In this document: positions 39,656-44,755 of the stretch, in pieces | Layout of the letters: each line of letters begins with the position of its first letter | Numbering within the stretch: position 1 is the stretch's first letter | From: Anaeromusa acidaminophila DSM 3853 | Lineage (GTDB): Bacteria; Bacillota; Negativicutes; Anaeromusales; Anaeromusaceae | Direction of reading: 5' to 3' | NCBI RefSeq assembly: GCF_000374545.1 | Contig: NZ_KB894582.1 | Span: 248,001 to 312,000 of the forward strand | DNA: 64,000 nucleotides | Made by a program: the position numbers and the translations under genes | Notes under the pieces: generated by a model | What the model saw: only the letters and a program-made list of their open reading frames with translations | Told to the model about the DNA's origin: nothing | Databases searched by the model: none

Positions 39656-40021
39656 ATGAATGACATCTTTCTTTCTTTCGTATCTTACTTATGGAGCATA
39701 GGGATTAAAAGCAATGTGGAAGTTCTTGCAGTTGTACTACTCCCGGAAATAGCTCTGTTGGGACTTATTTATTTTATTTTTATGCATGTAGAAGAATTAG
39801 GCTTAGCTGATTTTTGGGAGCAGGAACAACGCTTGCTGGGAGAACGATTGGCGAGGTATAATCTTCAACATGAGCGGCGAGTCCGCGAATTAAATGGCTC
39901 TAAAGGCGATGGTGAGCAGCCTGCAAGGACTCTTGGAGGAGAAGCGGCAGGCGCCGCTTATACGCAGGATCAGCTTGTTAAGGACGTGGTTGGTTACCTT
40001 CGCGATGAGGAAAACAAATAA
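39656..40021 (+). CDS. Single-TM protein of unknown function
   Basis: 121 residues, not recognised. A hydrophobic N-terminal half (NVEVLAVVLLPEIALLGLIYFIFMHV, about 20-45) is followed by a charged coiled-coil-like tail (EQEQRLLGERLARYNLQHERRVREL) and ends LVKDVVGYLRDEENK. The topology suggests a membrane-anchored cytosolic helix. AAGGAG lies 9 nt before the ATG; 16 nt separate it from the DUF4127 gene, with which it is likely co-transcribed. Confidence 0.65.
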   Translation: MNDIFLSFVSYLWSIGIKSNVEVLAVVLLPEIALLGLIYFIFMHVEELGLADFWEQEQRLLGERLARYNLQHERRVRELNGSKGDGEQPARTLGGEAAGAAYTQDQLVKDVVGYLRDEENK

Positions 40022-40037: not shown

Positions 40038-41621
40038 ATGGAAAAGAGAACGTACATACGCTGGCTATGCACGGTCATGACGGCGGTTTGCCTTTTGGCG
40101 GGCTTGCCGACAGCGGCTTGGGCGAAAACCATTTTGTTTGTGCCGCAGGACAATCGGCCGGTGAGTTTTAGAGAGGCTGTAGAAACAGCGCAGGCTGCTG
40201 GGTTTGAGGTGCTGACGCCGCCGGAAGATTTGCTGGCCAGCCGGGGACGCGAAGGAAATCCCGAAGCGGTTTGGGACTGGGTGATGGCTAACGGCAAAAG
40301 CGTAGATGCTATGGTTTTGTCGGCTGATACTTTGGTTTACGGCGGTTTGGTGGATTCACGCATTCATCAGCTTGGTTCGGATCTGCTCTGGGTGAGACAG
40401 GCTCGCTTTGATAAGCTGAAAAAACTCAACCCGACGGCGAGACAATATGTATTTGCGACAATTATGAGGACGCCGCGCATGACTGCTGGCGGCGTAGAAC
40501 CCTCGTATTATGAAAAATATGGTCCCAATATTTTTGAGCTGACGGTTCTACAGGACAAGGAAACGGTCCTGGGACTGACGAGCGAAGAGAAGCGTCAGTT
40601 GAAAAAGTTGAAAGAAACCATTCCTCAGGATGCCTTGGAAGATTGGTTTTCGCGACGAGACAAAAACTTCCAGGTCAACCGAAACTTTGTGGATAAAACC
40701 ATCAAAGGGGATATTCAATATTTGCTATTAGGGCGGGATGATACTGCGCCTTTTTCTCAAACGCACAAGGAAGCCAGATTGCTGGTGAACCAGGCGGCGA
40801 AGCTGCCGGCCAGCCGTTTTGCTTCGTTCCCTGGCGCGGATCAACTGGGTATGCTGCTGTTGACCCGGGCGATTAACGACTTGGAGCATCGCGTGCCGGT
40901 GGTTTCAGTACAATATGCTTTAGGTACGGGGCCCAAATCACTGCCAACTTACGAAGATCAGCCGATAGGCAAGAGTATCGTGGACCAGATTGTTTCAGCG
41001 GGAGGCATTGTGCTGCCGCAGCCGCAAAAACCGGATTTAGTACTGGCGGTGCATACTTCGCCGGATGGTCACACAGATGAAGCCGAATGGGTCAGCAATA
41101 TTACCTACGCCAGCGCGGGAACAAAGCAGTTTGTGGCTAATGTTGCCAAAGATCTTGCCAAAGGGCAGGCGGTGGCTATCGGGAATATTTCTTTTGTAAA
41201 CGGTTCGGATAATTCGTTGATGCAGGAATTGAGCGAGCAGAAGCTGCTGGGCAAACTGACAGCGTATTCCGGCTGGAATACGCCGAGCAATACCTTGGGC
41301 TTCGCTATTTCTCAAGGCATGTTGGCGCCGCAGATGACGACAGCGTCAAGGCAGAAACTGCTGGCGGAACGCTATTTGGATGATTGGGCGTATCAGGCCA
41401 ACATTCGCAGTCAGCTGAATCGGGAAATCGTTTACGCTAAAGGCGGCAGCCTGGTGCAACTGGATGCTCTTGAGGGAGAATTGACTGTAGCGGCGCAGAA
41501 GAAACTGCGTGAATTCGCCAAACAGCATTTGGACTTTTTGAAGCCGGAACAAGTGCAAGTGAGCTTCCCTTGGAACCGGATGTTTGAAATTGATGTGCGG
41601 ATTACACCGCCGCAAAAATAA
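40038..41621 (+). CDS. Secreted DUF4127 family protein
   Basis: 527 residues. Signal peptide MEKRTYIRWLCTVMTAVCLL with cleavage near AWA. The mature N-terminus TILFVPQDNRPVS, SADTLVYGGLVDSRIH, FATIMRTPRM and ISFVNGSDN match DUF4127, a family of extracytoplasmic proteins of unknown function in Firmicutes; the clustered Asp/Asn/His residues resemble a polysaccharide- or peptide-active fold, but no activity is established. It ends with its own terminator. Confidence 0.85.
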   Translation: MEKRTYIRWLCTVMTAVCLLAGLPTAAWAKTILFVPQDNRPVSFREAVETAQAAGFEVLTPPEDLLASRGREGNPEAVWDWVMANGKSVDAMVLSADTLVYGGLVDSRIHQLGSDLLWVRQARFDKLKKLNPTARQYVFATIMRTPRMTAGGVEPSYYEKYGPNIFELTVLQDKETVLGLTSEEKRQLKKLKETIPQDALEDWFSRRDKNFQVNRNFVDKTIKGDIQYLLLGRDDTAPFSQTHKEARLLVNQAAKLPASRFASFPGADQLGMLLLTRAINDLEHRVPVVSVQYALGTGPKSLPTYEDQPIGKSIVDQIVSAGGIVLPQPQKPDLVLAVHTSPDGHTDEAEWVSNITYASAGTKQFVANVAKDLAKGQAVAIGNISFVNGSDNSLMQELSEQKLLGKLTAYSGWNTPSNTLGFAISQGMLAPQMTTASRQKLLAERYLDDWAYQANIRSQLNREIVYAKGGSLVQLDALEGELTVAAQKKLREFAKQHLDFLKPEQVQVSFPWNRMFEIDVRITPPQK

Positions 41622-42800: not shown

Positions 42801-44702
42801 ATGAAAGAGAGGCGTGTTTTAGCGGCGGCGGTCGCGGTTATCGCGGCTGTAATGGCGGCTGTGGCGCAACAGGCAGGTTTGTGGGCGGTCGTGCTGGCTA
42901 CAGTAGCAGGGGGGATTGGCGTTTTTTATTTGAGCGGAAGCAGAGGCGGTGCGGAGACCGTTTCTAAACCGCTTGTCGGAGTGGCTGTTAGCGAGAAAAA
43001 GCAAGGGTATGGCAATGACTTATATTCCTTGGCGGAGACGATGGGATTTATTTCTCAGCAATTGGTTTGGTTAGTAGGGAAAAGCACAACGGCTTTGCAG
43101 CAGTTGAGCGTACATACGCAGAAAGTGGCTGATGCCAGTCATCACAACGCCAGTGGTTTAGAGGAGGCCTCGGCCAGCACCGAAGAAATGGCCGCCTCGG
43201 CGGAACTTGTCAGCGTGTCCAGCGGTGAAGCCCTAGAAGAATGTCGCCGATCGACGCAGCTTGCCGTAGGCAATCGGCAGGAGGTGCGCGCGTTGGCGTC
43301 GGATATGCTGCAGGTGGCGCATATTGTGGAAGAGGCTTCGAAGTCTATAGGGCAATTGGAGGAAGCGTCCCGCCGTATTGTGGATAGTGTTGGCAGCATA
43401 CATGCTATTGCGGATCAAACTAATCTTTTGGCTCTAAATGCGGCTATTGAGGCGGCTCGAGCCGGTGAGCAGGGGCGCGGTTTTGCGGTAGTAGCGGAAG
43501 AAGTACGCAAGCTGGCTGGTGAAAGCGCTGTTATCAGCAAGGAGATCGCTACGACCGTCGGAGAAATGGCCCAGCGTACGCAGGCTGTGACACAGGCTAT
43601 GCAAGGAGCGCAAACGGCGTTGCAAGGCGTGGATGAAGCGGCTGGGCGTTCGGAAAAAGCGTTGGATGAAATCGTAGCTTCTATGGGAGGCATTGAAAAA
43701 TCAGTGGAGCGTTTGGCACAGGCTTCGGATGAGCAGCGTCACGGAGCTGCGGAGATGGCGACTGTGCTGGAGGAACTTAGCCGCGCCACTGTGGAGATTG
43801 CTGCGAGTACGCAAGAAGCCTTGGATAGCGTTACTTCCCAGGAAAAAACAGCGGAAGAAATCTTGCAGCAGGCGAAGAAGATGGCGGAATCGGTAGACGG
43901 CATGCAGGAATTCGCCAGCCATTTTAAGCAGTCTGAGGATTTGATTTTTGCAGTTAATCCTTTCGCAGCGCCCCAGGTGATTCGCGAGCGTTATGTGCCG
44001 GTTTTAGAGGAAGTAGCTCGGCAGGTGGGTAAAAAAGCCAGAGTAATTATTGTTTCAGATTATGACGCCCTGGGACGCGCCTTGGCTAACGGCACCGCCG
44101 ACATTGGATGGTTTTCGCCATTTGCCTATATTGCAGCCAGGGAGCGTCATGGAGTGCGACCGCTTGTGACGCCTGTCGTCAACGGCAGTCCTTCTTACCA
44201 TGGTTTGATTATTGCTCGTAAGGACAGACGGCTTCAGACATTGGAATCCTTGGACGGCAAGCGCTTTGCTTTTGTAGACCCGCAGTCCGCATCAGGTTAT
44301 GTATATCCTAAAGCCATGTTGCTGGAACAAGGGAAGAACCCGGAACGCTTTTTCGGTGAAACGCGCTTTTTGGGTAGCCATAACCGGGTGATTGACGCCG
44401 TCTTGTCAGGACAAATGGATGCTGGCGCTACTTATACGGAAGCGATGGATGCGGCGCGTGCGGCGGGTTCGGCGGTACATGAATTGATGGAAGTGGCCCG
44501 AACGGAGGCCATTCCTAAAGACGCTATTGCAGCCCGGGCTGACGTGGATAAAGAATTGACGCAGGCTATCAGCGAAGCGTTTGTTCGTTTAAGCTCAGCG
44601 GGAGGTCAGGAGTTGCTGCGCAAAAGTCAAATCGACGGCTTTGTACGTAGTGATGACGCGGCATATGATGTCATTCGCCGAGCGGCTAAGGTAACGCAGT
44701 AA
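42801..44702 (+). CDS. Chemoreceptor with C-terminal PhnD-like binding domain
   Basis: 633 residues. Two closely spaced TM helices (about 6-21 and 27-47) with almost no extracytoplasmic loop; no HAMP. Then the chemoreceptor signalling domain (about 75-375), tip [20 protein letters not shown] at 203-222 and [16 protein letters not shown]. Residues 380-633 form a second domain resembling PhnD/phosphonate-binding proteins: [33 protein letters not shown] (434-446), [18 protein letters not shown] (491-508) and [16 protein letters not shown]. With an even number of TM helices the binding domain would be cytosolic. A weak GGAAGGA lies 14 nt before the ATG. Soluble-side ligand sensing for taxis is the likely role. 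Confidence 0.9.
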
Positions 44703-44709
44703 TTAAAAG

Positions 44710-44755
44710 AATAGCAAAGCCCGCTGACAGGCAGTTGTCAGCGGGTTTTGCTATT
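44710..44755 (+). terminator. Long hairpin after the chemoreceptor
   Basis: 20-bp stem with one G-T pair (AATAGCAAAG... / ...TTTTGCTATT) and a 6-nt loop. The T-rich segment is within the stem, so it should stop transcription, possibly less efficiently. Confidence 0.7.

Follow-up and report, generated by a model that had tools for sequence, protein, structure and literature searches.

A chemoreceptor family with a C-terminal PF12974 domain predicted to lie inside the cell, and glycerol-3-phosphate as its candidate ligand

Results and discussion

Gene and domain organisation

The window (the whole stretch of 64,000 nucleotides of Anaeromusa acidaminophila DSM 3853 that was analysed) contains a chemoreceptor gene with the following features:

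42801..44702, + strand: whole chemoreceptor gene with C-terminal PF12974 domain, stop included (633 aa, ATG start)
42816..42938, + strand: predicted transmembrane hairpin of two helices with both ends inside (residues ~6-46; hydropathy, AlphaFold2 and the positive-inside pattern of the family)
42939..42998, + strand: variable linker, predicted to be disordered (residues ~47-66; pLDDT <50 at 46-67, conservation 0.23)
42999..43925, + strand: MCP signalling coiled coil (residues 67-375, hairpin tip near residue 221; PF00015, AlphaFold2 and the match to 2ch7)
43938..44699, + strand: PF12974 (PhnD/PtxB-type) binding domain (residues 380-633; Pfam, AlphaFold2 pLDDT 92.3, structural matches to HtxB and PtxB)
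44719..44745, no strand assigned: 10-bp inverted repeat directly 3' of the gene, resembling a terminator only when read on the minus strand; the regional number of such sites is not above that in shuffled sequences

A Pfam scan of the 633 aa placed MCPsignal (PF00015) at residues 174-328 (126.6 bits, cut-off 34.6), followed by a full-profile match to Phosphonate-bd (PF12974) at residues 383-622 (240.9 bits, cut-off 27), and hydropathy analysis gave two N-terminal transmembrane segments, at residues 6-22 and 26-42, and none further on. No match to HAMP was found in the receptor. This bears out a sequence-only reading of the same DNA, which had described a PhnD-like binding domain behind the signalling domain, two adjacent transmembrane helices with a minimal outer loop and the absence of HAMP. 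With the outer loop almost absent the protein does not show the design of a classical transmembrane chemoreceptor (N-terminal periplasmic ligand domain together with HAMP), and as the same scan gave no match to a Cache domain it does not belong to the sCache_PC3 group. Nor does it resemble the SBP of an ABC transporter, the domain being fused to an MCP with no cognate transporter directly adjoining, and apart from the hairpin its N-terminus has nothing resembling a signal peptide.

When compared with NCBIfam the receptor passed TIGR01098 (171.5 bits, cut-off 112.05) and stayed below the cut-off of the PhnD equivalog TIGR03431 (160.9 vs 261.1 bits). The nearest solved sequences to the PF12974 domain are ArrX, PtxB and HtxB, and the best solved match of the signalling part is the Thermotoga (T. 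maritima) receptor 2ch7 (profile positions 94-379). The residues of the MCP hairpin tip are conserved in the receptor family, and the genome of the window holds three PF02895 matches above cut-off for CheA.

The gene does not adjoin glp genes in the window, where its neighbours (an EamA transporter, a DUF4127 protein and homologues of sbcD and sbcC) are little informative. A 121-aa ORF without Pfam match (39656-40021) lies directly before the gene for the DUF4127 protein (40038-41621).

Predicted structure and topology

The full-length AlphaFold2 model consists of helices at residues 2-22 and 27-46, a disordered stretch at 46-67, a single helix from 67 to 375 and a PBP fold from residue 380, the mutual placing of the domains not being reliable in this monomer model (pTM 0.56). 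For the C-terminal domain, modelled with 23 homologues as input, the mean pLDDT of 92.3 allows a type II PBP fold to be predicted with confidence, as the sequence-only reading had presupposed. At the top of the VIA-align matches to this model stand HtxB (Z 28.2, 2.3 Å over 258) and PtxB (Z 27.8, 2.5 Å over 252), and since both of these structures are open the model is in the open state; the VIA and Foldseek matches comprise those ranked high by Foldseek, and absence from them carries no meaning.

Of 53 family members, 45 have two and only two hydrophobic segments at the N-terminus, and in the family the charges follow the positive-inside rule for a hairpin with both ends in the cytosol (K+R per protein: 1.91 ahead of the hairpin, 0.31 in the loop and 2.44 behind it); none of the 53 has a TM-like segment after residue 350. 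The remaining eight have either one long hydrophobic segment (three members) or none (L043, L050, L060, L076 and L078). No convincing hairpin is encoded in any frame just upstream of L043, L050 and L060, and the hydrophobic stretches upstream of L076 and L078 are interrupted by stops; in the tree the TM-less members occupy at least four places and thus represent at least four lineages.

Since no transmembrane segment follows the signalling domain, some members have none at all and the signalling domain must face CheA, the PF12974 sensor domain must be cytosolic according to both the topology prediction and the TM-less relatives, as proposed earlier for this receptor. That the domain lies outside, through an odd number of transmembrane segments or through export, would fit its relatives, which are exported SBPs, but is hardly conceivable with an even segment count and positive-inside charges in addition to the features just given.

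Family and distribution

When searching 300 Negativicutes genomes the domain was found at high identity in 37 (mostly 52-61%, one copy at 43% and one split), with open frames that are nearly always ~600-700 aa long and with a gap in identity down to ordinary SBPs at ~30% or less. Because the PBP part is so similar across many Negativicutes and lies in frames of this length, the fusion of an MCP chemoreceptor to a C-terminal PBP-type domain is confirmed as a real architecture and not a chance joining. Both PF00015 and PF12974 were matched by all 23 aligned members (L078 was left out of the alignments as it has an in-frame stop near its end). The domain is rare in a sample of Clostridia (8/391), each time in a frame whose length could accommodate the fusion, and a scan of GTDB genomes showed the fusion clade to span Negativicutes, Clostridia, Synergistota (Acetomicrobium) and Spirochaetota, so the receptor is not a single oddity; it is one of a multi-phylum family. 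In the tree all fusions fall on one side of a single branch with a support of 99/96, and the nearest stand-alone SBP is L081, on a long branch. This protein (Verrucomicrobiota, 41% identical, the nearest canonical relative) was considered as a clue to the ligand and set aside, its contig starting just upstream of the gene and mfd following it.

Some further proteins were noted in these searches. Two more Clostridia fusions (L126:8681-10576 and L127:8037-9932) have N-termini that are apparently TM-less, and adjoin butyrate-kinase-like and aminopeptidase-like genes. A partial PF12974 match was seen in a 649-aa open frame at L006 (G000:C1:204580-204822) and also at L016, L018 and L020, the frame being conserved in 4/4 genomes of the genus. 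Ordinary PF12974-like domains, roughly 25-30% identical, were found at G090:C27:83605-84351, G034:C167:51402-52112 and G204:C4:165841-166473; the open frames that hold them are 530-587 aa long and may represent other fusions.

Gene neighbourhood and co-occurrence

At 18 of 64 loci the receptor gene lies in or beside a glycerol operon (glpP-glpF-glpK-glpABC or glpO), in six families of Negativicutes and in three Clostridia, and 46 loci, including those of the Selenomonadaceae type, have no glp neighbour. The names of the neighbours were verified with NCBIfam and Pfam (GlpK, GlpA, GlpB, GlpC, pyruvate kinase, GAPDH, MIP channel and the G3P-responsive antiterminator PF04309). L079, suggested as glycerol-linked by clustering, was not counted since its kinase is xylulokinase-like. 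The Negativicutes operon reads, along a single strand, glpP, glpF-like, glpK, glpA, glpB, glpC, receptor, pyk, cggR-like, gapA, pgk, tpiA, gpmI, eno, and at L057, L097 and L098 the receptor precedes glpABC. The TM-less receptor of L099 and L106 starts 16 and 31 nt after glpC and ends 15 and 11 nt before pyk, respectively, while the Clostridia loci L065, L075 and L128 have other arrangements of glpP, glpK and glpF with a gene resembling a type-2 G3P oxidase (glpO-like). This placement suggests that the receptor reports glycerol uptake and steers the cell by glycerol-3-phosphate.

As the operon of the Negativicutes often continues into glycolysis, other C3 phosphates are possible ligands. A wider version, in which the same design detects another signal from central metabolism, either a phosphorylated compound or an oxyanion (3-phosphoglycerate, PEP, inorganic phosphate, arsenate), is a minor possibility: in Negativicutes the gene is often flanked by glpC and pyk-cggR-gapA-pgk-tpiA-gpmI-eno, or else by eno and glpA, and the head-group pocket described below would suit any phosphate-like group, but L065, L075 and L128 have glp genes and no glycolysis genes around the receptor.

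The link to glycerol was also seen at the level of whole genomes. Among 172 MCP-bearing Negativicutes genomes, 37 with and 135 without the fusion, GlpK was present in 37/37 against 73/135 (Fisher p 7.7e-9) and GlpA in 35/37 against 58/135 (Fisher p 3.7e-9), the relatedness of the genomes being ignored in both tests, and GlpK was found in 19 of 20 further fusion genomes beyond this set. The genome of the window has glpA and glpK though its receptor is not glp-linked; three congeners of the species lack the fusion, though these carry glp operons. Genes for phosphonate breakdown are scarce, with PhnJ in 1/60 and PhnX in 6/60 fusion genomes (either one in 7/60), and no phosphonate genes were seen to recur beside the receptor at the loci surveyed.

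Two other conserved gene groups were observed. The Selenomonadaceae-type loci (L105-L118) have constant upstream DUF445-like genes together with a 2-hydroxyacyl-CoA dehydratase activator-like gene, and downstream of the receptor follows a PTS/murQ-like set encoded on the other strand. At L121 (L121:7153-14853, in the window's genome, G000:C4), L122, L123 and L124, spanning the genus of the window and two other families, genes for a secreted PF12974 lipoprotein, a sensor kinase (with HAMP and sCache_3_2 at L121) and a LuxR-type regulator adjoin glpABC, with a GlpT-looking MFS transporter added at L123 and L124; this set is possibly a three-component sensor of external glycerol-3-phosphate.

Binding pocket and putative ligand

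To compare the pocket, 23 family rows were aligned with E. coli PhnD and Te_PtxB, for which contact residues have been described (PMC5700983). The equivalent positions in the receptor of the window, all on the + strand, are:

44061..44063: Y421, equivalent of the head-group residue Tyr47 (E. coli PhnD) / Y55 (Te_PtxB)
44196..44198: Y466, equivalent of Y93 / Y100
44286..44294: S496-A497-S498, equivalent of the S-T-S oxyanion motif, with Thr replaced by Ala in 23/23 rows
44379..44381: H527, equivalent of H157 / H160
44439..44441: E547, tail-binding position (E177 in E. coli PhnD)
44520..44522: D574, tail-binding/cap position (D205 in E. coli PhnD, Y208 in Te_PtxB)

Y421, Y466, S496, S498, H527, E547 and D574 are invariant in all 23 rows, so that the head-group set of Tyr, Tyr, S-T-S and His is retained save for the middle Thr (A497 for Thr128). 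The conserved pocket is accordingly predicted, from this alignment, to accept any phosphate-like head group. Of the internal phosphonate- or phosphate-like metabolite envisaged in the sequence-only reading, the phosphate-like part is upheld by these invariant residues, whereas a phosphonate is unlikely and was rejected as the ligand in view of the few genomes with PhnJ or PhnX and of recurrent neighbours that are glycerol genes.

That the PBP domain has no free metabolite as ligand, and serves as a protein-interaction or degenerate module, is very improbable. The sterol-transporting 7t1m, a relative sharing the fold among the VIA and Foldseek matches, shows that the fold can switch use, and the Thr of S-T-S is Ala throughout the family, but every other head-group residue is invariant and conservation is higher in the PBP (0.64) than in the MCP arms (~0.5), the N-terminal linker being lowest of the protein (0.23).

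At the tail positions, E547 and D574 align without gap to E177 and D205 of E. coli PhnD, which hold the amine of 2-AEP (PMC5700983), and an aminophosphonate or amino-alkyl phosphate (2-AEP, phosphoethanolamine) would suit this invariant pair. Such a ligand for the same design is nevertheless unlikely given the scarcity of PhnJ and PhnX, the lack of recurrent phosphonate genes beside the receptor and the replacement of Thr14 by F388 and of Thr128 by A497, although phosphoethanolamine itself is still conceivable. GpxB, of the same SBP family (PF12974), binds G3P and G1P and holds the glycerol hydroxyls by an Arg/Thr pair (R223/T247) at the positions equivalent to E177/D205 (PMC12718374); the aligned family has E547/D574 in place of this pair, which counts against glycerol-3-phosphate, and D574 in place of the capping Tyr208 of PtxB.

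Taken with the recurrence of the receptor in glycerol operons and its co-occurrence with GlpK and GlpA, the cytosolic receptor probably, though by no means assuredly, senses a phosphate ester that arises within the cell, the foremost candidate being glycerol-3-phosphate or a closely related triose phosphate (DHAP, for example). The more specific proposal, that a widespread chemoreceptor family with its PBP inside the cell binds glycerol-3-phosphate directly, and that a family of proteins for external uptake was on a single occasion co-opted for sensing metabolites in the cytosol, is evenly balanced. The prediction is weakest for the copy in the window, which is not glp-linked; we infer that it shares its ligand with the receptors that are.

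Proposed signalling mechanism

Glycerol reaches the cytosol by facilitated diffusion (GlpF) and is trapped as glycerol-3-phosphate by GlpK, and a glycerol receptor can therefore usefully sit inside the cell and read glycerol-3-phosphate. In the proposed mechanism glycerol would enter via the facilitator and be phosphorylated by GlpK, binding of glycerol-3-phosphate would close the two-lobed PBP, and lobe closure may then alter the packing of the coiled-coil bundle and so change CheA activity at its tip. No more than the short stretch of residues 376-379, with the conserved Q369 and K376 nearby, separates the PBP from the end of the C-arm. The end of the C-arm and the start of the N-arm share the HAMP-side end of the MCP hairpin, and the PBP thus feeds in where input normally arrives, only through the other of the two helices; the mechanical coupling to the bundle and the direction of the response are put forward as presumed. 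As the linker at 46-67 is variable and disordered and the hairpin is lost in several relatives, the N-terminal hairpin would serve purely as a membrane anchor, and the earlier suggestion that signal input comes from its far end is not retained.

Relation to known systems

AioX/ArrX-type PF12974 proteins serve signalling, not transport, and feed histidine kinases. They thus share this use of the domain with the receptor described here, but are exported, separate proteins that act on the kinase from outside. The sensor of H. pylori TlpD (CZB) is C-terminal, as in the fusion receptors. TlpD is a cytoplasmic chemoreceptor with, likewise, cytosolic input to the MCP bundle (PMC6715182), but its sensor domain and signal are others and most fusion receptors keep a membrane anchor.

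Chemoreceptors for glycerol-3-phosphate have been known since 2025, when periplasmic sCache_PC3 receptors were presented as the earliest case of chemoreceptors that recognise phosphorylated compounds (PMC12395807). These (PacP of Pectobacterium) likewise respond to phosphorylated C3 compounds with glycerol-3-phosphate preferred, but through a periplasmic sCache_2 between two transmembrane segments, whereas here a cytosolic PF12974 PBP follows the signalling domain, in other phyla. The PhnT-family SBPs PhnD, PtxB, HtxB and GpxB (PF12974) have the fold and the phosphate-head residues in common with the receptor domain, but are exported transporter subunits and not fused to an MCP inside the cell, and the tail residues of GpxB and PtxB are unlike those of the receptor. 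In E. coli, PTS-mediated glycerol chemotaxis requires glpK, which shows that such internal cues occur, as proposed here, but it runs through PTS proteins without a dedicated receptor (PMC4996493). No description of a cytosolic PBP chemoreceptor of such architecture was found in the literature searched, which covered few subscription papers. The novelty lies in the combination of a cytosolic PF12974 PBP with an MCP, both glycerol-3-phosphate chemoreceptors and PF12974 SBPs binding glycerol-3-phosphate being already known.

Since some members are fully soluble, the family lends itself to studying, in a simple setting, how an MCP bundle is driven by a Venus-flytrap domain without transmembrane signalling or HAMP. 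If the proposal is true, a nutrient that diffuses freely would be turned into a chemotactic signal through the first product made from it in the cell, and metabolism-dependent taxis, so far mostly explained indirectly by energy or PTS sensing, would have a receptor of its own.
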